This document shows, piece after piece, positions 1,668-35,361 of a stretch of 35,361 nt of DNA (its first letter is position 1; each line of letters opens with the position of its first letter). The notes beneath the pieces were generated by a model. It had not been told where the DNA came from. It was given only the letters and a program-made list of their open reading frames with translations, and did not search any database. The position numbers and the translations under genes were made by a program. Source of the DNA: Actinomyces culturomici. GTDB lineage: Bacteria; Actinomycetota; Actinomycetes; Actinomycetales; Actinomycetaceae. The stretch covers positions 17,186-52,546 of the forward strand of contig NZ_LS991318.1 of the NCBI RefSeq assembly GCF_900499005.1. The letters run 5' to 3'.

Positions 1668-2969
1668 CTACTGTTCGGTTCCCGTCGGACGAAGGGTGAT
1701 CACTTCGCCTTCCTCCTCCTTCGGGCGTTCCGTCTTCGCAAGGGCTTCGGCCACATGGTCGGTGATGAGGCGCCGCCGTTCGTCGTTCGCGTGGATGTAG
1801 CGGCGCGTAATGCTGCTGTTCTCATGGCCCATTGCCGTAGAAACGTCCTGCGCTGAAACGCCGGATACGGTTGCCGCGAGTGAGGCGAAGGTGTGCCGGA
1901 AGTCGTGAGGGGAGAGGCCTTCAATCTGCGCCCTCTTCACGGCGTTCCCGATGTTGCCCCGGAAGGTGCTAGGCGGGAACGGCTTGTTCGGGTTGCTCGG
2001 AGCGGGGAAGACGTAGGCATCCTTACCGCGCGTTGTCTTCGCAAGGTAGGCGGTGAGTTCGTCGAAGAGGTCGGACGGGATAGTGAGGGTGCGGTTACCG
2101 GCTTCCGTCTTCGGCGTTGTCTCCGTGGCGTACTTCCCTTCCCCGGTCACTGCGCCGTTGATCATCACCTTCCTAGTCTTCAAGTTGATAGCGCCGCGCT
2201 TCAGTCCCCGCAGTTCGCCGAGACGAAGGCCCGTGCCCGCTGCGAAGCGAACCACCAAGGGCCACATGTCGCCGGGCATCTCACCCGCGAGCGCCGCGAC
2301 CTCCCACGGTTCCAGGGCCCTAGGCGCGTGGCGCTGTGACTTGCCGGACCTTGCGCCCTTCATTGACCCGAGCATCTTCGGGCGGATCGGCAACGTCTCG
2401 ATGACCTCATCCTGATACGCGGTCCGCATGATTGTTGCGAACAGGTTGAACATGTTCCTGCGGGTGCGGGCGACTTCGGGAACTTCGCCGTCGGTCGCGA
2501 GCCATGTCCGAATGTCCTTGGTGGTGATGTTCGTGATGGGAACCTTCCCCCACTTCGGTTCAATCCATTTGTTGTAGGTGAACTGATAGCTGTTGCGGGT
2601 GGATGCTGCAAGGCTCCGGTTCGCAAACCACGTCTTGCCGTACTCGCCGAAGGTGTAGGTGTCGCGGGTGCGCTGCCTTTCTACCTCTTCGGCTTCGGCG
2701 TCTTCCTCTTCCTTGCTCTTCCAAACCCCCATCTCAATGCGCGCCGATTCCTTCCTAAGCCAATCGTCGGCCGCTTCGATGGTGTGGAATCCGCCGGTGC
2801 GGGGCGTGCAACGGATGATGTTGCCGTGTTCGTCCCTGAGCTTGTACGGGTGCTGATAGCTCGCGTAATAGAGCCCGTGCCCCCGGTACTGACGGACTGA
2901 CCCGAACTTCCTCTGGCGCTTGTACTCCTTGCGCTCGCCGTTCTCGGTGGTTGCGACCTGCTTTGTCAT
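1668..2969 (-). CDS. Tyrosine recombinase (integrase) of an integrated element
   Basis: This 433-residue site-specific recombinase would integrate and excise the mobile element. The N-terminus (KFGSVRQYRGHGLYYASYQHPY) resembles arm-binding domains of actinobacterial integrases, followed by a core-binding helical region (about 95-190, TFGEYGKTWFANRSLAASTRNSY). The catalytic domain shows the first Arg in GTGLRLGELRGL, the His-x-x-Arg box in LSPHDFRHTFASLA, and the terminal GHENSSITRRYIH with the nucleophilic Tyr. Start ATG at 2969 is preceded by AAGGAGGAG at a good distance. Its base composition is lower in GC than the host genes to the right, which fits transfer. It lies next to a tRNA 3'-end remnant (3151-3173), the usual target of this family. 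No excisionase or structural gene is visible; the rest of the element lies left of the window. Confidence 0.93.
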   Translation of the reverse strand: MTKQVATTENGERKEYKRQRKFGSVRQYRGHGLYYASYQHPYKLRDEHGNIIRCTPRTGGFHTIEAADDWLRKESARIEMGVWKSKEEEDAEAEEVERQRTRDTYTFGEYGKTWFANRSLAASTRNSYQFTYNKWIEPKWGKVPITNITTKDIRTWLATDGEVPEVARTRRNMFNLFATIMRTAYQDEVIETLPIRPKMLGSMKGARSGKSQRHAPRALEPWEVAALAGEMPGDMWPLVVRFAAGTGLRLGELRGLKRGAINLKTRKVMINGAVTGEGKYATETTPKTEAGNRTLTIPSDLFDELTAYLAKTTRGKDAYVFPAPSNPNKPFPPSTFRGNIGNAVKRAQIEGLSPHDFRHTFASLAATVSGVSAQDVSTAMGHENSSITRRYIHANDERRRLITDHVAEALAKTERPKEEEGEVITLRPTGTEQ

Positions 2970-23219: not shown

Positions 23220-24272
23220 TCAGTCCGCCCAGGGATCGACGAGGATGCGGATCGGATTGCCGATCTTCTTCTCCAGGTGCTCGATGCCGACGGCGATGTC
23301 CCGCAGCGGGACGACCTCCGAGACCGACTCGGAGAGGTCGAGGCGCCCGTAGCGGAGCATCTCGGCGAGCATCGCGATGTCCTGGGTCTTGTAGCCGATG
23401 TGCCCGAGAACCTGCTTCGAGCGGAGGTTGAATTCGAGGAAGGTCCCGAGATTCATCTCCTGCGGGCTCATGCCGACCGACACGACCTTCCCGCCCGTGT
23501 CGAGGCTCGCGACCGCCTGGCGCAGCGTCGAGGGGATGCCGACCGCGTCGAAGGCGACGTCGATCATGCGTCCGCCCGTCGCCTCGAAGATGTGCTTCAG
23601 CAGGTCGGGGTCGTCCGCGCGGAAGACGTGGTCGGCGCCGAGGCGCTCGGCGCGCGCGAGGCACTCGTCGTTGACATCGATGCCGATGATCGGGACGCCG
23701 CCCGCGAGCTTCGCGAGCTGGGCGATGTGCGTGCCGACGCCGCCGAGGCCCCACACGGCCACGGCGTTGCCCGGGTGGACCTTGCCGGTGCGGACGACCG
23801 CGCCGAACGGCGTCGATACGGCGTCGGCGAGGATCGCGGCCTCCTTGAGGTCGACCTCGCTCGGCACGCGGGTCATGCCCATCGCGTTCGCGATCATGTA
23901 CTGCGCCCACCCGCCGTCGTAGGCGAAGGCCATGAGCTGGAGGTCGAGGCACGCGGTGAAGTCGCCGCGCCGGCACCTCCGGCACTTGAGGCACGGACGG
24001 CCGGCCGAGGGGATCACCCGGTCGCCGACCTCCCATTCGGTCACGCCCGGGCCGAGCTTGTCGATCGTCCCGGCGGCTTCGTGCCCCTGCGTGATGACCG
24101 GGAGCCGGTCGGGGAAGGCGCCGTGGATGAGCGAGAGGTCCGAGTGGCAGATTCCGCAGTACGCGACCTTGATCCTCACCTGCCCGGGACCGGGTTCGGG
24201 GATCGGGATCTCTTCGACGGCGACCCTCCGGCCGTCGGCGTAGAAGCGCTCCGCGAGCATTGTGCCTGTCAT
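23220..24272 (-). CDS. Zinc-dependent alcohol dehydrogenase
   Basis: This 350-residue medium-chain dehydrogenase oxidises alcohols or reduces aldehydes with NAD. Catalytic zinc ligands are Cys39 (CGICHSD) and His64 with Glu65 (GHEAAG). The structural zinc lobe has Cys94, Cys97, Cys100 and Cys108. The nucleotide site is GLGGVG (175-180) with Asp199 closing the strand, which favours NAD over NADP. It resembles the AdhP/AdhT group of ethanol dehydrogenases. ATG 24272 follows AAGGAG. It stands alone, opposite to holB; a palindrome lies on its promoter. Confidence 0.93.
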   Translation of the reverse strand: MTGTMLAERFYADGRRVAVEEIPIPEPGPGQVRIKVAYCGICHSDLSLIHGAFPDRLPVITQGHEAAGTIDKLGPGVTEWEVGDRVIPSAGRPCLKCRRCRRGDFTACLDLQLMAFAYDGGWAQYMIANAMGMTRVPSEVDLKEAAILADAVSTPFGAVVRTGKVHPGNAVAVWGLGGVGTHIAQLAKLAGGVPIIGIDVNDECLARAERLGADHVFRADDPDLLKHIFEATGGRMIDVAFDAVGIPSTLRQAVASLDTGGKVVSVGMSPQEMNLGTFLEFNLRSKQVLGHIGYKTQDIAMLAEMLRYGRLDLSESVSEVVPLRDIAVGIEHLEKKIGNPIRILVDPWAD

Positions 24273-26375: not shown

Positions 26376-26448
26376 GCCACCTTAGCTCAGTCGGCAGAGC
26401 GATTCACTCGTAATGAATAGGTCGTGGGTTCGATTCCCACAGGTGGCT
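26376..26448 (+). tRNA. tRNA-Thr, anticodon CGT
   Basis: This 73-base cloverleaf has acceptor GCCACCT pairing with AGGTGGC, D-arm AGCTCAGTCGGCAGAGC, anticodon stem ATTCA/TGAAT, anticodon CGT at 26409-26411, and T-arm GTGGGTTCGATTCCCAC. The discriminator is T, and CCA is not encoded. It reads ACG codons. It is intact and is not the target of the element at the left end. Confidence 0.97.
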
Positions 26449-26455
26449 CAGACGG

Positions 26456-26503
26456 GAAGCGGCCCGGCACCTGCGCGAACAGGTGCCGGGCCGCTTCGTT
26501 TTT
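26456..26503 (+). terminator. Strong terminator after the tRNA
   Basis: A perfect 18-base stem (26456-26473 with 26480-26497, loop CGCGAA) is followed by GTTTTT. Confidence 0.92.
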
Positions 26504-27053: not shown

Positions 27054-30000
27054 CTACTCGGCTCCCGACGCGCGCCTGCGCATGAGGAGCGCCCAGGCGC
27101 CCGCTCCGACGAGTCCGCTGCCGCCGATCCCCACGAGGACCCACTGCCACCAGTCCGCGCCGCTCCCGTACGATGCGGAGCCGCGCTCAGGGTTGAGCAG
27201 GGCGCTCACGGGCGCGGCGGGCTTGGCGAGCGCCCGAGTCGTGGACGCCCCGGACTGCGAGGAGTCCGCGAAGTTCAGACCCGCGACGCCGCTCGACTGG
27301 GAGCCGTCGGCGCTGGAGGCGCCCGACGCGCCGGAACCGGTCGTGGTGCCGGAAGCGGAGGTCGTCGACCCCGCGCCAGCCGCCGAGTTCGACGACAGCA
27401 GCGAGCCGGACACGGTCGACCCTCCGGTCACCGGGGTCCCGGTCTGCCCGGCGCCCTCGGCGAGGCGCGCGGCGGCCGCCGTGGGATTCCCGATCGACGA
27501 GGACGGGGCGCCCGCACCCGCAGAGGGGGAGGGGGTCGAACCGGCGCTGGGGGAGCCCGTGGAGGGCGACCCGGTCGAGGGGGAGGCGCCCGGAGCGGGC
27601 GCGGACTCGCCGGGCTTCCGAGTACCGGGGTTCGGCTTCGTCCAGTTCTTGTGGGACTCGGCGTTGAGCTTCGCGACGAGTTCGTCGATGGGGAGCGCTT
27701 CGCCGGGGTTCGGGTTCGGCGCGGGCTCCGGCGACGGGTCCGGTGACGGCTCCGGCTCGGCGCCCTTCTCGATGGCGTCGTCGCCGACGAGGAAGATCGC
27801 GTGGAGCGTCTTCTCGATGGTGGAGCCGTCGGCGAGGTGCGCGGTGTAGACGAAGTCGGTCGCGTAGCGCCCGGGCTTCGTGAAGTAGAAGGCCTGATGG
27901 TCGTGCGATCCGAAGAGGTAGCGGAGGACCATGTCGGGCTTCGCCGAGTCGAGTCGGGGCGTGAATCCCTCGAAGAGGGAGGAATTGCCGGTGACGAGAC
28001 GACCGGGGCCGGTGAAGTTCTTCATCGCGACCTCGACGCCCTTGTCCGAGAGCTGCGAGTAGTCGACCCGCTGGGTCGAGAACCCGACCCAGGGGATGCG
28101 TTCGAGCTGGGTCTCGGGCAGGGTCCACACGCCCTCGGGCGCTGCGGCGGCGAGTTCGTCGTAGCCCTTCGCGCCGGCGGGGATCTTCGCGTGCGTCGAG
28201 TCGGGGACGGCGTAGGCGAAGGTGCCGGAGGCGCGATGGACCGGGTGGCGCGGGTCGGCGGTGTCGTCGACGAAGACCTCCGCCTTCCCGTCTTTCAGGG
28301 ACATCGCCTGGTCCATGTGGCCCTCGGTGATGATGTGGATCGCCGAGTCGCCGGGATGGGAGGGATCGGACGGGGTGGCGGGGTCGGGGGTCGACGGATC
28401 GGAGGGCTCGGCCGGCGTCGAGGGGTCGCCCGGGTCCGCGGGGTCCGGGGAGGGCCCGGGCGCGGGCGCCTCGCCGTTGTTCTCCGCGGTGATCGCGCGC
28501 AGGGCCGCGATCGCGGCGTCGCCGACGACGAAGTGGGCGGAGCGGAACTTGTAGGAGAAGTTCCCGTCCTTGTCGCGCGTTTCGATGTTGAAACCGACGG
28601 TGTAGACGCCGGGCTTCGTGAAGACGTGGGCGAGGGGCACGGCGGCGGCCTCGGCGGTGAAGCCGCGGTTGGGGTCGCGCGTCGTGTCGAGGGCGACGGT
28701 CATCGCCCCGTCGGCGACGGTCCCGGCGATGTAGCGGCCGCCCTTGGGGCCGTCGAAGGTGTCGACGGAGTAGACGGCCGGCTCGGAGCGCAGCTCGGAG
28801 GGCATTCCGGTGAAGTCGAATCCGAGCGATCCGTGCTCGCCGGAGGCGGGCAGGACCCAGCGGTCGCCCTCGGCGGTCGTCTGCTTGAGCGAGTCGGGGA
28901 TCTCGAGGATCGGCGACCCGGGGATCGCCGTGCCGTCCGCGCTCACCTCAAGGGTCACCCGCTTGATCGGCTTGCCGTCGCGCACGTCGTCGTTGAAGGT
29001 CCCCTTGTAGACGTAGTGGGAGGGTGACGAGGGCGAGGCCGGCGCCTTCGCGGCGGAGCCGAAGAGCGCCTCGATCTGCTTGCGGGCCTCGGCCTGCGTG
29101 AAGGGGGCCTCGGGCTCGGCGGGCTTCTCCTCGGTGGAGAGCTCGCCGGAGGCGATCATCTTCTCCTTCACCTGCTCGGCGGTCGTCCCGATAGGCGTGA
29201 GGGAGGTGGTGGTGCCTGCGGGCAGGCCGACCTCGTCGTCGGAGCCGACGAGCCACGTGATGGTCGAGGGCCAGGAGTTGACGGTCCTCTGGGACCACGT
29301 GGACGTGTAGGAGGCGACCATGTCGAGCCTGTAGACGCCGGCCTTCGAGAAGGTCCAGTTCCAGTGGCCGTGGGAGCCTGCCTGGAGGGAGAGCGGGGCG
29401 AGCGAGGAGTCGGAGGAGAGGCCCCGGCTCAGGGAGTTCGCGCCGACGGTGCGCCATACCTCGACGGCTCCGGGTCCGGAGGAGTTGGCGATCGAGAGCT
29501 TCACCTCGTCGAGGAGGATCCCCTCGGGCTGGGCGACCTCGTGCGCCGTGTCGAAGGCGCCGATGCCGGCCCAGACGGGACGCCAGTTGTCGATCTGCTC
29601 CTGGGGGGCGCGCCAGACGATGTCGCCGGGCTTGCCGATGAAGTCGAAGAGGCCGCCCGAGGGGACGACCATGCGCGAGACCTCCTGGGAGTCGGAGGCG
29701 CGCGCATCGGGGGCGAGGCGGACGCAGACGGAGTTCGGGTCTTTGACGACCTTGCGGCCGTCGACGACGGTGACGGTGAAGGTCTCGTCGACGCGGGTCA
29801 CGTAGGCGGCGTCGACGTGGGCGTGGTGGAGGAGCTTGCGTCCGGCGCACACGTGGGGGACGCGGCCGTCGGGCCCGGGGGTCGCCTCAGGGTCGGCGCC
29901 GGGCGAGCCCGCGGGGACCGTGAGGTCCGCGGGCACGACGTCCCCGTAGCCGGCCTCGCCGGGCAGGTGCTCGGGGTCGTCGGGGGCTCCGGGGGACGAG

Positions 30001-30143
30001 GGCGAGGCCCCCGAGTCGGCGGAGGCGGAGTCCGCGGGAGGGGGCGTCTCCGACGGGGCGGCGTGCGCCGCGGGCACGACGAGTATCGGCGCGGCGAGCA
30101 GGGCGGCCGCGGCGAGGAGGCCGGTGAACGGCAGGGTCCTCAT
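27054..30143 (-). CDS. ABC transporter-associated surface repeat protein, three choice-of-anchor M domains
   Basis: This 1029-residue exported wall protein is the last gene of the operon. A signal peptide (MRTLPFTGLLAAAALLAAP, cleavage after AHA) leads to a Pro/Ser/Asp-rich linker. Three surface-anchored (choice-of-anchor M) domains follow at about 95-300, 395-590 and 640-840. Each ends in a strand such as GHWNWTFSKAGVYRLDM, LAHVFTKPGVYTVGF or DHQAFYFTKPGRYATDF and then a VGDDAI-like closing motif. A long Gly/Ser/Pro spacer and a C-terminal helix (WWQWVLVGIGGSGLVGAGAW) with an RRR tail fix it in the membrane; no LPxTG or LAxTG box is seen. ATG 30143 follows AAAGGA and overlaps the permease stop (ATGA). 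It fits the family named putative ABC transporter-associated repeat protein. The ligand is unknown. Confidence 0.88.
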   Translation of the reverse strand: MRTLPFTGLLAAAALLAAPILVVPAAHAAPSETPPPADSASADSGASPSSPGAPDDPEHLPGEAGYGDVVPADLTVPAGSPGADPEATPGPDGRVPHVCAGRKLLHHAHVDAAYVTRVDETFTVTVVDGRKVVKDPNSVCVRLAPDARASDSQEVSRMVVPSGGLFDFIGKPGDIVWRAPQEQIDNWRPVWAGIGAFDTAHEVAQPEGILLDEVKLSIANSSGPGAVEVWRTVGANSLSRGLSSDSSLAPLSLQAGSHGHWNWTFSKAGVYRLDMVASYTSTWSQRTVNSWPSTITWLVGSDDEVGLPAGTTTSLTPIGTTAEQVKEKMIASGELSTEEKPAEPEAPFTQAEARKQIEALFGSAAKAPASPSSPSHYVYKGTFNDDVRDGKPIKRVTLEVSADGTAIPGSPILEIPDSLKQTTAEGDRWVLPASGEHGSLGFDFTGMPSELRSEPAVYSVDTFDGPKGGRYIAGTVADGAMTVALDTTRDPNRGFTAEAAAVPLAHVFTKPGVYTVGFNIETRDKDGNFSYKFRSAHFVVGDAAIAALRAITAENNGEAPAPGPSPDPADPGDPSTPAEPSDPSTPDPATPSDPSHPGDSAIHIITEGHMDQAMSLKDGKAEVFVDDTADPRHPVHRASGTFAYAVPDSTHAKIPAGAKGYDELAAAAPEGVWTLPETQLERIPWVGFSTQRVDYSQLSDKGVEVAMKNFTGPGRLVTGNSSLFEGFTPRLDSAKPDMVLRYLFGSHDHQAFYFTKPGRYATDFVYTAHLADGSTIEKTLHAIFLVGDDAIEKGAEPEPSPDPSPEPAPNPNPGEALPIDELVAKLNAESHKNWTKPNPGTRKPGESAPAPGASPSTGSPSTGSPSAGSTPSPSAGAGAPSSSIGNPTAAAARLAEGAGQTGTPVTGGSTVSGSLLSSNSAAGAGSTTSASGTTTGSGASGASSADGSQSSGVAGLNFADSSQSGASTTRALAKPAAPVSALLNPERGSASYGSGADWWQWVLVGIGGSGLVGAGAWALLMRRRASGAE

Positions 30144-31018
30144 GCGAGTGTCCTTTCTGTGGTCTGCGCCGCCGGTCGGGCGCGAAGGAGGAGTCCGCGC
30201 CCGGGCGAGAGGAGCTGGGCGAGGACGAAGAGGAGGGTCGCGACGAGGACGATCGCCGCGCCCGAGGGGATGTCGAGCGACCAGGAGGCCCAGATGCCGA
30301 GGAAGGCGGAGACGGCGCCGATGGCCGGGCCGATGAGCATCATGGGGACGACGCGGTCGGTGAGGAGTCGCGCGGTCGCCGCGGGGGCGACGAGGAGCGC
30401 GAGGACGAGGACGTTCCCGATCGTCTGGATGGAGACGACGACGGCGGTCGCGATGGCGAGGTGGAGGAGCAGGTCGATGCGCCCGGCGCGCAGGCCCGTC
30501 GAGATCGCGAAGTCGCGGTCGACGCTCACGAGGACGATCCGGTCGTGGAAGACCGTGAGGGCGATGCCGATCGCGGCGCACGCCGCGAGGGAGATGAGGA
30601 CGTCGGTGTTCGTCACGCCGGTGAGAGACCCGAAGAGGAGCGATTCGAGGGATCCCGTGTAGCCGGGCGTTCGCGCGACGACGACGAGGCCGAGGGCGAA
30701 GGCGGCGGCGAAGAAGACGCCGATGACGGAGTCCTCGCCGACCCGGCGGTTCTGGGAGAAGACGGAGATGAGGATCGCGACGAGGATCCCGGCCGCCGCT
30801 CCTCCCAGGAGGATCGACCCCTGGAGCGCGAAGGCGATCGCGATTCCGGGGAAGACGGCGTGCGAGAGCGCGTCGCCGACGAAGGAGAGTCCGCGCAGGA
30901 CGACGTGCGCGCCGACGAGGCCGCAGACGAGCGAGGAGAGGACGGCGATGAGGAGCGCCCTCGGGAGGAAGGCGAGCGAGGGGTTCGCGAGGTCGGAGAG
31001 GAAATCGAGGAGGCTCAT
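30140..31018 (-). CDS. Anchored-repeat-type ABC transporter permease
   Basis: This 292-residue ABC-3 family (ZnuB/MntB-like) membrane subunit is the channel of a metal-type importer. The N-terminal segment VVLRGLSFVGDALSHAVFPG is the family signature, and about eight hydrophobic helices follow (for example ISLAACAAIGIALTVF, LVLALLVAPAATARLL). ATG 31018 overlaps the ATPase stop as ATGA, so translation is coupled; the frame is open upstream only because it runs across the ATPase gene. Its stop overlaps the start of the surface repeat protein. Confidence 0.93.
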   Translation of the reverse strand: MSLLDFLSDLANPSLAFLPRALLIAVLSSLVCGLVGAHVVLRGLSFVGDALSHAVFPGIAIAFALQGSILLGGAAAGILVAILISVFSQNRRVGEDSVIGVFFAAAFALGLVVVARTPGYTGSLESLLFGSLTGVTNTDVLISLAACAAIGIALTVFHDRIVLVSVDRDFAISTGLRAGRIDLLLHLAIATAVVVSIQTIGNVLVLALLVAPAATARLLTDRVVPMMLIGPAIGAVSAFLGIWASWSLDIPSGAAIVLVATLLFVLAQLLSPGRGLLLRARPAAQTTERTLA

Positions 31019-31737
31019 CGGCGCACCATCCCGAGGGAGCGGAGGAGCGCGGAGTCCTCGGAGACGCGGAAGGTCTCCATCCACGGCTCCGGCGAGCAGA
31101 GGTCGGCGGGCTCGCCCTCGGCCCTTACGGTCCCGTTGAGCATGACGAGCCGGTGGCAGATGTCGACGGCCTGTCCGAGGTCGTGCGTCGACATGAGGAT
31201 CCCGACGCCGGAGTGGGCGAGGTCGACGAAGAGGCGAGACAGCGCGTCCTGGTTCGGGTGGTCGAGCCCGGTGAAGGGCTCGTCGAGGAGGAGCAGCCGC
31301 GGCGAGGCGACGAGCGCCCGGGCGACGAGGATCCTCTGCTTCTGGCCGCCCGAGGTCTCGTTGATCGTCCGGTTGCGGTACGCGTACATGCCGACCGCGT
31401 CGAGCGCCCGGTAGACGGCTTCGAGGCGCGCCGCGGCCCGCGGTGCGCGGCGTCGGCCGGTGAAGGCGGTCGCGACGAGTTGGGCGGCGCTCATCGGATA
31501 GTTCCAGTCGAGGTCCTGGCGCTGCGGGACGTAGCCGATGACCGAGCCGCTCGCCTCGATGCTCCCGCGGTGGGGGACGAGTCCCATGATCGCGCGCATG
31601 AGCGTCGTCTTGCCGGCCCCGTTCGGTCCGATGAGGCCGACGAGCTCGCCCTCGTCGACCCGAAGGGAGACGTTCTCGAGGATCGCCCGCCCGCCGAGGT
31701 CGACGCGCAGGCCGGACACCTCCAGCGCGCGGCTCAT
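31015..31737 (-). CDS. Anchored-repeat-type ABC transporter ATP-binding subunit
   Basis: This 240-residue motor protein powers the importer. Walker A is GPNGAGKTT (37-45), the signature is TSGGQ (128-132, Thr in place of the usual Leu at its start), Walker B is LLLLDEP, and the switch His lies in STHDLG. The Q-loop region reads YVPQRQDLDW, as in ZnuC/MntA-type ATPases of metal importers. ATG 31737 overlaps the previous stop by four bases. Confidence 0.94.
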   Translation of the reverse strand: MSRALEVSGLRVDLGGRAILENVSLRVDEGELVGLIGPNGAGKTTLMRAIMGLVPHRGSIEASGSVIGYVPQRQDLDWNYPMSAAQLVATAFTGRRRAPRAAARLEAVYRALDAVGMYAYRNRTINETSGGQKQRILVARALVASPRLLLLDEPFTGLDHPNQDALSRLFVDLAHSGVGILMSTHDLGQAVDICHRLVMLNGTVRAEGEPADLCSPEPWMETFRVSEDSALLRSLGMVRR

Positions 31738-32729
31738 CGGTCCGACTCCCGGTCGTCGGCCTCATCGGACGCTTCCGGCTTCGGCTCGACGGGGCCTCGC
31801 GCCCCGCCCTCGACGATCCTCTCGGCGGCCCGCTCGCGCTCCCGGCCGCGGCGATGGGCGACGAGGACGAGGGCGATGAGGACGAGGGCCGCGGCGCCGA
31901 GCCCCGCGGCGATCCAGAGCGGGAGCGCGGTCGATCGGTCGACGGCCGACGGCGCGTCGACGGGAGCGGGCGACTCGGGGGCGTTCGAGATGGTCCACTG
32001 GGCCTCGAGTGCCTTCTGCGCGTCGGCGGCGTCCCCGACTGCGAAGCGGAGGATGCGGGTGTCCTCGACTGTGGAGCCGTCGGTGAGCTGGGCCTGGAGG
32101 CTGAGGCGGATGAGGTGGATCCCCGGCTGCGTGAAGACCCAGTTCGCGTGGGTGTGCGTGTTCGCGTCGACGTGGATCGGCTGCGCGTTCGGCTTCGTCG
32201 AGTTCCACAGCTCCTGGGGGCCGGAGAAGTTGCCCGCCTGGACGAAGGCGTGGAAGTCGCCCTCGCCCTCGTGCCCCTCGAAGACGAGGGTCGCGCCCTG
32301 GGCGAGTCGGCCGACGACCTCGGGGTCCTGGGTGTTCCAGCCGAGCCACACGACGTTCGCGATCTCGGACTGGGGGACGGCCCACACGGGGCCGTTCGCC
32401 GAGATGAAGGAGTACTGGTCGTCGGCGGGGAGCTCGAGCTTCGCGGCGTCGGACACGCGCAGGACGACGTCGTCGAGGTGGCGCCACGTCGGCGCCTGGC
32501 CGGAGTCGTCGCGGGCGAGGAAGGTCCACGCGCCGTCGAGGAACTTCGGTCCGAGGTCGACGTGCCCGGCGGAGATCTCGACCGGCGTGCCTGCGGGGGC
32601 GACGGTCTCGTTCGAGTCGACGACCTGGGTGAGCGAGGGGTCCTGAGTCGTCGTGTCCGCTGCGAGCGAGGCGGGGGCGAGGGCGATGAGGGCCGCGGCG
32701 GCGAGCGCGAGCGCGTGCGTGAGTTTCAC
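31734..32729 (-). CDS. Membrane-anchored single-domain surface repeat protein
   Basis: This 331-residue protein has a signal peptide (MKLTHALALAAAALIALAPA, cleavage after SLA), one choice-of-anchor M domain (about 45-245), and then a membrane helix (LWIAAGLGAAALVLIALVLV) with an RRGRERER stop-transfer and an acidic cytoplasmic tail of about 35 residues. The domain opens with GHVDLGPKF and ends with the His-rich strand NTHTHANWVFTQPG and FAVGDAADA. The start is GTG 32729, with GAGGAGACCA upstream and a GTGA overlap with the binding-protein stop. It stands between binding protein and ATPase, so it is probably a functional part of the importer rather than a bystander. Confidence 0.87.
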   Translation of the reverse strand: MKLTHALALAAAALIALAPASLAADTTTQDPSLTQVVDSNETVAPAGTPVEISAGHVDLGPKFLDGAWTFLARDDSGQAPTWRHLDDVVLRVSDAAKLELPADDQYSFISANGPVWAVPQSEIANVVWLGWNTQDPEVVGRLAQGATLVFEGHEGEGDFHAFVQAGNFSGPQELWNSTKPNAQPIHVDANTHTHANWVFTQPGIHLIRLSLQAQLTDGSTVEDTRILRFAVGDAADAQKALEAQWTISNAPESPAPVDAPSAVDRSTALPLWIAAGLGAAALVLIALVLVAHRRGRERERAAERIVEGGARGPVEPKPEASDEADDRESDR

Positions 32730-34375
32730 TGGTCTCCTCGGGTGGGATTCGGGATGGGCGCCTCCGACTCGAAGGGCCAGGCGGGCAGCGAGGCGGGGTC
32801 GAGGCAGGACTTGATCGAGCGCGTGTTGAACACCATGAGGTCGAGGTAGGTGGGGACCTCGTCGGTGAGCGTGTCGGAGTGGAGCGAGCAGACGGACTTG
32901 CCGGTCGCTCGCGCGAGAGCGACGAGCTCGCCGAGGTGGGAGCGGGAGGTCGGTTCGAGGAAGACGCCGGCGGCCGGCGTCTGCTCGAGGACGCGCGTGA
33001 GGTTGGCGAGCTGGAGGGCGGACGGCTCGAGGGACGGGTTCGGCGCGACGAAGCCGCCGATGCGCAGCCCGTAGGCCTTCGCGTAGTAGCCGAAGGAGTC
33101 GTGCGCGGTGACGAGGGCGCGGCTCTTCGCGGGGATGGTGGCGACGACTTCGCGGATCCACCGGTCGAGCGCCTCGAGTTCGGCGTCGCGCGCGGCGGCG
33201 TTCGCCCGGTACTCGGCCGCGCGCGAGGGATCGAGGGCGGCGAGGCGCTCGGCGACGAGGTCGGTGTAGGCGATGGCGTTCTTCGCGTCGTGCCACATGT
33301 GCGGGTCGATCTCGCCGTGAACGTGGGTCCCGATGACGGCCTGGGCGAGGATCCTGGCGGAGGCGCCGGGTTCGGCGAGGAATCGCCACCGGTTGTCGGG
33401 GATCGTGGTCGTCGTCGTGTCGGGGACGGCGATAACGACCCGGTCGGGGTCGAGGTCGCCCGCGGGGGCGTCCGCCCGCAGCGTCATCGAGCCCTCGAGC
33501 TTCGCGGTGAGATCGGCGTGCCCGGAGTCGAGGACGGTCCGCCCGGTGGAGTGCGGGTCGACGCCGACGGCGAAGACGAGGGTCTTCTCGCCGAGCGGAG
33601 CGTCGCCCGTCGGCGAGTGGAGCGTCGCGCGCAGGGAGAGCGAGTAGACGCCGGGATCCGTGAAGCCCCACGACATGTGGGTGTGGGCGTTGGTCGGGAG
33701 CTCGACACGGTCGTTCGAGTCGATCCCGTCCTTCGAGGCGATCCACGGGCGCGGTTCGCCGAAGGTCCCGGTCGTGAAGGCGGCGAGGTCGCCGGGGCCC
33801 GTCGCCGCGACCGCCTCGAAGGAGACGGTCGAGTCGGTCGAGGCGCGCCCGTCGACGCGCAGTCCGAGCCAGATCGTCGCGAGGGAGAGGTCCTCGACGA
33901 GGGGGATCGGGCGCGCGCCGAAGGGGACGGAGTCCTCGCCGAGGGCGACGTGCTGGGCGCCCTTCGGAAGGTTCGCGTCGATGGAGGCGGTGAGCGCGCT
34001 CTGCTCGAGGAGCAGCCCGTTGGAGAAGGCGATGTCGGCGTGCGCGATGTCGCGCAGGGCCGCCATCGAGGGCTCGAAGGAGTGCGGATCGACGCCCGCG
34101 GGGACGAGCGTGGCGATGCGCGCTCGCGGGGCGACCGCGCGCACGAGGTCGGCGATGATCGGCGTCGTCGCGACGATCCGCGGTTGCGTCCCGTCGTCCG
34201 TCGCGTCGGTGCTCCGCGGCGCGGCGGACTGCGACCGCGCGCCGGGGGCCTCCTCGGCGGGCGCTCCGCCGTTCGCGAGGGCGGGGGCGCACGCGCCGAG
34301 GAGGAGCGAGGGGGCGCCGATGAGGAGGGAGAGTGCGAGGGCGCTCCCGGCGCGACGCGCTCGGGCGCGCCTCAC
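32726..34375 (-). CDS. Metal-type substrate-binding lipoprotein with inserted surface-repeat domain
   Basis: This 549-residue lipoprotein should capture the substrate for the importer. The signal peptide ends in lipobox LLLGAC with lipid-bearing Cys29. The TroA/ZnuA fold begins at RIVATTPIIADLVRAV (66-81) with ligand His98 (DPHSFEP), breaks off near 155, and resumes near 345 with His359 (EIDPHMWHD), His425 (TAHDSFGYYAKAYGL) and Asp501 (LHSDTL). The three-His-one-Asp set is the zinc-type pattern, against Glu at the third place in manganese proteins. The 190 inserted residues form a choice-of-anchor M domain (NAHTHMSWGFTDPG, FAVGVDP). This is the hallmark of the anchored-repeat substrate-binding family. 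GTG 34375 overlaps the upstream stop (GTGA). Confidence 0.9.
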   Translation of the reverse strand: MRRARARRAGSALALSLLIGAPSLLLGACAPALANGGAPAEEAPGARSQSAAPRSTDATDDGTQPRIVATTPIIADLVRAVAPRARIATLVPAGVDPHSFEPSMAALRDIAHADIAFSNGLLLEQSALTASIDANLPKGAQHVALGEDSVPFGARPIPLVEDLSLATIWLGLRVDGRASTDSTVSFEAVAATGPGDLAAFTTGTFGEPRPWIASKDGIDSNDRVELPTNAHTHMSWGFTDPGVYSLSLRATLHSPTGDAPLGEKTLVFAVGVDPHSTGRTVLDSGHADLTAKLEGSMTLRADAPAGDLDPDRVVIAVPDTTTTTIPDNRWRFLAEPGASARILAQAVIGTHVHGEIDPHMWHDAKNAIAYTDLVAERLAALDPSRAAEYRANAAARDAELEALDRWIREVVATIPAKSRALVTAHDSFGYYAKAYGLRIGGFVAPNPSLEPSALQLANLTRVLEQTPAAGVFLEPTSRSHLGELVALARATGKSVCSLHSDTLTDEVPTYLDLMVFNTRSIKSCLDPASLPAWPFESEAPIPNPTRGDQ

Positions 34376-35230
34376 CGGGTCGCCCGGCGTCGCGCGGCGA
34401 ACCCGGCGAGGGCGAGGAGCGAGGCGAGGGCGATCGGGGCCGCCGCCTGAGCGCCGGTCGATGCGAGGCCGCCGGGAAGGGCCGAGCCGTCGACGGTCTT
34501 GCCCTCGGCGCGCAGGCGGTCGATCGTCGCCTGGTCGAGCTCGCAGGCGCGTCCGTCCGCGGTGCGGCCGACGTAGACGGTCGTCGAGCCCGAGCCGATG
34601 CCGCCGAACCAGCGGGCGCCGACGAGCGAGCCGAAGTTGCCGGACTCGAAGACGGCGAGCGAGCCGGGTCCGGAGACGCCGTTGAGCGTCCAGGTGACGT
34701 CGCCGCTCGTGTGGGCGAGGAGGTCGGGGTGCATCGTGTTCGCGCCGACCCACGGGACGGAGGGGACCTGGCTCGAGGAGATCATCCAGATCTTCTGGCC
34801 CTGCTTCGCAATGAATTCGATGCCGGCGGGGGCGGTCGTCTCGGCCGCGGCGCCGAGCCCGAAGGAGAGGGAGGAGGGGGCGACCCAGCGCGCGGGCTGG
34901 GACCGATCGTCCTTGACGAGCATGGAGATCGACGAGGGGCCGGCGCTCGTCCCGATGTCGAAGTGGCCAGCGTCGGCGTTGCCGGCTCCGCCGACGTTGA
35001 AGGAGAGGACGTCCGAGGCCGAGACGCGGGCGCCGGACTTCAGAGTCGTGGTCTGGGTGATCGACACCTTGTAGGCGCCGGGGGCGGTGAAGACCCAGTT
35101 CGGGTGGACGTGCGTGTTCGCGCGGATCGTGTGGGATCCGCCGACCGCCGTGCCGCTCCCATTCGAGGTGACGGGGGTGGGGAGGCACTGCTCGGCGGCG
35201 GGCTGCGCGGACGGCTGAGGGGCGGTGGGC
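34372..35230 (-). CDS. Cell-wall sorted surface repeat protein, 5' end missing
   Basis: This is the C-terminal 285 residues or so of an exported protein; the frame is open across the real sequence until adapter begins at 35231. It holds the end of one choice-of-anchor M domain (NTHVHPNWVFTAPGAYKVSI), then a second, incomplete one (GHFDIGTSAGPSSISML to about GRTADG) without the His-rich strand. It closes with LASTG, a hydrophobic helix (APIALASLLALAGFAA) and RRRATR. LASTG fits the LAxTG signal of class E sortases. Its stop overlaps the binding-protein start, so it is the upstream gene of the same operon. The promoter is lost. Confidence 0.82.
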
Positions 35231-35361
35231 GTCCCTTATACACATCTGACGCTGCCGGCGAATAAAGAGGGGTACGACTCGGGGGTGGAGGGCTGTATCA
35301 AACAAAAAAAAAGAGAATTACTCGTATAGCCCTCTGACGCTGCCGACGACTAGAGAGAGGA
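35231..35361. other. Sequencing adapter artefact at contig end
   Basis: TTATACACATCTGACGCTG (35236-35254) followed by CCGGCGA matches the Nextera transposase adapter with one mismatch. After an index-like stretch, GTATCA and a poly-A run (35295-35311) resemble the degraded flow-cell primer read-through, and the adapter piece recurs at 35333-35349. Translating it gives the well-known artefact RQRQMCIRD. No gene should be extended across it. Confidence 0.95.

Follow-up and report, generated by a model that had tools for sequence, protein, structure and literature searches.

The window analysed here is a stretch of 35,361 nucleotides (G000:C19:17186-52546) within a 2.56-Mb actinobacterial genome, and we focused on six minus-strand genes at 27054-35230, which we call A to F from first to last. 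We conclude that this operon is very probably a zinc importer of the ATP-binding cassette (ABC) type, of the same kind as znuAECB-znuFG of Corynebacterium diphtheriae, because the same cluster has been tied to zinc in that organism. By analogy, zinc would be the substrate in this strain as well. What is known is the substrate class, which comes from the relative; what we did not find described in the literature searched is the arrangement of the choice-of-anchor M (cM) domain. In all, the operon encodes this domain seven times (twice in A, once each in B and C, and three times in F), and some of the copies are circularly permuted.

Gene content and family membership

Gene B (32726-34375) encodes a lipoprotein metal receptor with a ZnuA/TroA fold and an inserted cM domain, and gene C (31734-32729) a secreted protein with one canonical cM domain. 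Genes D (31015-31737) and E (30140-31018) code for an ABC ATPase and an ABC-3 type permease, gene F (27054-30143) for a long surface protein that contains three copies of cM, and gene A, the 3' part of which occupies 34372-~35230, for a wall protein with a permuted cM domain. All five junctions are 4-base overlaps (ATGA/GTGA), in support of the original prediction that the six genes are made together. Gene content, domains and overlaps also agree with its broader claim of a metal-type ABC importer co-produced with surface cM proteins.

The hidden Markov model search with the anchored-repeat families of NCBIfam that had been proposed for this operon placed three of its proteins over the curated cut-offs: A, from its 3' part alone, scored 199.8 bits with TIGR03773 (cut-off 190.3), B 529.1 bits with TIGR03772 (350.45) and E 365.2 bits with TIGR03770 (296.8). 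The ATPase D counts against a complete match, as its 255.7 bits with TIGR03771 are 13 bits short of the cut-off of 268.8. TIGR03771 was nevertheless top-ranked for D among the 188 families listed, and we therefore treat D as an anchored-repeat-like ATPase by rank and place rather than by the curated cut-off. Pfam identified B as ZnuA, D as ABC_tran and E as ABC-3, and had no match for A, C or F. With the cM model NF038134 (cut-off 55 bits), A scored 121.5, B 82.1, C 185.6 and F 237.9 bits, so the three surface proteins and the receptor all carry the domain, as had been claimed. A receptor over the TIGR03772 cut-off was found in 31 of 58 genomes, comprising this one and 57 relatives, and in none of 14 control genomes. 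Receptor B and its counterpart in Actinomyces urogenitalis DSM 15434 (locus L041) share 97% identity (96% in the best tblastn segment), and the operon DNA is 89.9% identical to L041 over 8,332 alignment columns; by sequence, the host is an Actinomyces close to A. urogenitalis.

Gene A is split by a one-base N gap in the assembly, which leaves its other half beyond the window. The window's last base is directly followed by an N (L009:548), and the end of the window (~35232-35361, no strand) is non-biological, adapter-derived sequence at a scaffold gap that was left in the public assembly. Using letters that we take to be those of the Nextera adapter, we found exact fragments of 12 bases at 35235 and 35236 and of 14 bases at 35336. 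Because the window stops at an N gap beside adapter fragments, 35230 is not a true gene start. Beyond the N, gene A continues on the same strand (L009 549-~1330) with a complete cM domain in canonical order and a signal sequence, and the orthologous wall-protein gene in L041 is unbroken.

The C-termini suggest different placements at the cell surface. Read by eye, gene A ends in a LASTG-hydrophobic-basic tail with a putative sorting signal at ~34453-34467, and the genome has one sortase match. The protein of gene C ends, also by eye, in a membrane stretch with a charged tail. That of gene F has a C-terminal hydrophobic stretch and a basic tail, in which protein no LPxTG-like motif was seen by eye.

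The cM domain in three chain orders

To locate the parts of each cM domain, we used half-domain profiles, an N-half containing an HxD motif and a C-half containing an HxH motif, built from 344 full-length domains in 80 genome loci and four from the operon. The 80 loci are the best 80 of 371 confirmed and so form a non-random sample. The canonical N-C order was found in gene C (32037-32579, NF038134 positions 1-184), in copies 1 (29238-29846) and 3 (27777-28337) of gene F, and in the first domain of A. In receptor B, the insert (33356-33853) is circularly permuted: the C-half comes first (33557-33853, residues 175-273 of the precursor, 77.0 bits) and is followed by the N-half (33356-33547, residues 277-340, 38.4 bits). 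The second domain of A (34624-35181) is permuted at a different cut point. It begins with the 3' part of the C-half, which carries HxH (34990-35181, 55.3 bits), continues with the N-half and its HxD (34756-34974, 49.4 bits) and ends with the 5' part of the C-half (34624-34752, 33.6 bits). The unbroken orthologue in L041 has the same order. The original prediction had placed a cM domain inside the fold of the lipoprotein; the domain is indeed there, and its halves stand in rearranged order.

Both motifs are present in the cM domains of A, B, C and F, in reversed order in the receptor. The middle copy of F (28518-28826) is degenerate and lacks HxH; the half-domain profiles detected only its C-half and not its N-half, and its length is kept. 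The F-type genes of L043, L046 and L041 show the same degenerate middle copy. The receptor has the C-N order in all 80 loci, as in the window. The wall-protein permutation was found in nine of the 80 (L041, L042, L043, L045, L046, L047, L052, L053 and L099, the last of which gave slightly different profile hits), which belong to Actinomyces, Trueperella, Arcanobacterium, Actinobaculum and Nanchangia. The remaining wall-type proteins in these loci are mostly N-C, single or in tandem, some with degenerate halves; tandem copies, we infer, are what a permutation usually arises from. Predicted structures of gene C (mean predicted local distance difference test score 94.0) and receptor B (87.0) show, by eye, the same series of strands, which in the receptor begins with the C-half and ends with the N-half, in agreement with the permutation read from the profiles.

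We did not find this permuted arrangement described in the literature searched. In C. diphtheriae, the HxH and HxD motifs of ZnuA are noted as reverse-ordered with 45 residues between them, and the word permutation is not used in the parts of that study examined (PMC12445094). Two permutations that keep the same motif residues amount to a natural experiment that points to HxD/HxH as the functional site, a matter that the published point mutants left open. The cM domain is a beta domain in which HxD and HxH most likely make one zinc site.

A second cM locus lies away from the operon (L135:2987-5438, ~G000:C17:1443986-1446437, minus strand). It is CmrA-like, with several cM domains and a LASTG-type tail, and the gene may be broken or misassembled, since its 5' part is picked up in another reading frame.

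Substrate, regulation and the path of the metal

Receptor B has the fold of the cluster A-I (ZnuA/TroA) metal receptors and their four metal ligands, three histidines and an aspartate (H45, H306, H372 and D448 in the numbering of window:32729-34216). By fold it is closest to the zinc receptor AztC, and its permuted insert sits at the position of the His-rich loop in the ordinary ZnuA of this genome. Manganese and iron, too, are served by receptors of cluster A-I, and manganese receptors make up many of the sequence matches of B, including the first among solved structures. In addition, the third canonical metal histidine, a histidine in the window, is N, T or S in five of the 14 receptors of alignment A1. 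These points weigh against zinc. The matches to manganese receptors would fit a manganese or mixed manganese/zinc importer, in which the three-His-plus-Asp site takes manganese and the cM domains tune it. TroA, which uses manganese, has the same ligand set, and its title in the PDB lists it as zinc-binding; a manganese-regulated importer of C. diphtheriae also takes zinc. Against this stand the AztC match and the zinc- and Zur-dependent repression of the orthologous cluster in C. diphtheriae (troA-dip0445; PMC6711530), and we consider a manganese importer improbable. In five loci (L018, L026, L028, L029 and L039) the third metal histidine is replaced and the inserted HxH/HxD is intact; as judged from sequence, the way in which their receptor site binds metal may differ.

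The original prediction held that such systems have no established substrate or mechanism, a statement that the C. diphtheriae work has overtaken. Besides repression by zinc and Zur (PMC6711530), a 2025 study, which names the cluster znuAECB-znuFG, reports that it supports growth in low zinc (PMC12445094). The same study finds ZnuE important to this Znu-dependent growth and describes zinc-dependent thermal shifts of ZnuE, ZnuF and ZnuG in vitro; ZnuE with three motif histidines changed to alanine did not complement (PMC12445094).

Zur control of the operon had already been predicted in a 2010 study (PMC2823685), and a search for an upstream Zur site, as suggested for this DNA, gave a mixed result. 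A near-palindrome, TAATGCGAGCCACTCTCATTA, precedes the presumed ATG of gene A by 17 bases. Eight of its ten pairs are palindromic in the 10-1-10 layout described for Zur sites of actinobacteria, and the exact pattern TAATG-N11-CATTA occurs nowhere else in the genome. In the 8.5-kb znuACB-zur stretch, the best match to this site (15 of 21 positions) stands at the same distance, 17 bases, from the presumed ATG of znuA, both starts having been chosen rather than mapped; the best matches in eight other stretches of the genome agree at 12 or 13 positions. With the two sites combined into one pattern, there was no third site in the genome within two mismatches; at three mismatches the pattern found five more sites and its backward control one. 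Two observations count against the site: 15 of 21 was also reached in three of 60 Markov shuffles of the compared stretch, and the core is divergent. On balance, the sequence favours Zur control, and the operon would probably be repressed by Zur when zinc is plentiful.

We propose the following path for zinc. The cM copies would be positioned in the wall through A, along the long surface protein F, at the membrane through C and within receptor B, and those at wall, membrane and receptor most likely bind zinc. The permuted domain of B most likely catches zinc, or accepts it from the protein of gene C, a role suggested by its place, which in other zinc receptors is taken by a flexible His-rich loop. 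Zinc would then pass to the three-His-plus-Asp site and on to the permease, entering through E with power from D. The wall proteins may deliver zinc or merely hold it. Because ZnuE is the component with a genetic effect, the step from C to B is the hand-off that we would defend first, and an insert at the His-loop position offers a direct test of zinc uptake by the receptor. That zinc is handed between domains from wall to receptor, which includes the relay originally proposed, is a reasonable hypothesis that we rate somewhat below even. A bolder reading takes cM as a folded replacement of the His-rich capture loop, present in three chain orders in one operon as equivalent sites that exchange zinc from wall to membrane to receptor; this chain is suggested by the retention of HxD and HxH in each order, and we advance it tentatively, as the less likely outcome.

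Several results from C. diphtheriae weigh against these proposals, and by analogy its mutants partly oppose a wall-to-receptor relay. In that species, growth in low zinc does not require znuF or znuG, deletion of znuA has a modest effect only, the thermal shift of ZnuE with zinc persisted after its three histidines had been replaced, and the authors are not conclusive on whether the HxD/HxH motif itself binds zinc (PMC12445094). Such data bear on another possibility, that A and F buffer or store zinc at the surface without delivering it to the receptor, and that C and the ABC parts alone import. The wall proteins ZnuF and ZnuG lower growth when the transporter (znuAECB) is missing and are dispensable when it is present, and sequestration or storage was proposed by the authors themselves (PMC12445094); the lack of HxH in the middle copy of F points the same way. 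On the other side, A and F share a co-transcribed layout with the importer and the receptor has the same domain, suggesting a working link. We regard storage as a serious possibility that falls distinctly short of an even chance. That the cM proteins are mainly adhesins or binders of host ligands, made with the importer by chance, is very improbable: cM is also part of the lipoprotein receptor B and of membrane protein C, and histidines are required for the ZnuE and ZnuG phenotypes (PMC12445094).

Elsewhere in the window, a gene for a zinc-type alcohol dehydrogenase (23220-24272, minus strand) is separated from the operon by 3 kb; in C. diphtheriae, adhA responds to zinc (PMC6711530). An integrase-family gene is found near the left edge (1668-2969, minus strand), and 26376-26497 on the plus strand holds a single tRNA-Thr (cgt) and, after it, a long terminator-like hairpin.

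Comparison with known systems

With the NCBIfam anchored-repeat ABC transporter set (TIGR03769-TIGR03773, NF038134), the operon shares a receptor, permease and wall protein over curated cut-offs and the cM domain in four proteins, and it differs in its lower-scoring ATPase. For actinobacteria with this set, "zinc importer" replaces "anchored repeat transporter of unknown substrate".

The closest likeness is to C. diphtheriae Znu, whose order of receptor, cM membrane protein, ATPase, permease and multi-copy cM surface protein is that of B-C-D-E-F, and whose receptor likewise has an HxH/HxD insert in reverse order. By position and layout, ZnuE, a cM membrane protein between receptor and ATPase, is the counterpart of gene C. 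Gene F is most like ZnuF, a multi-copy cM surface protein described as having no sortase signal, and ZnuG is the sortase-anchored cM protein of that species. In contrast to C. diphtheriae, the sortase-type wall protein comes first here and has a canonical and a permuted cM domain, F has three cM copies rather than two, and no counterpart of dip0444-0445 was identified here. The C. diphtheriae cluster is described as having two promoters.

AztABCD of Paracoccus denitrificans resembles the operon in its ZnuA-like AztC, the best fold match of B, although B scored 178.8 bits with the AztC family model against a cut-off of 350. AztC takes zinc from its partner AztD and needs a flexible loop (PMC6689063). 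AztD is a beta-propeller, whereas here the partner and the loop position are both cM domains, and the transfer is putative. Going by descriptions only, streptococcal AdcA with its ZinT domain likewise has an extra zinc domain on a ZnuA-like receptor, and the Pht proteins that accompany AdcAII are multi-copy His-motif surface proteins (PMC6689063, PMC12445094); both pairs differ from the operon in being built from other domain families.
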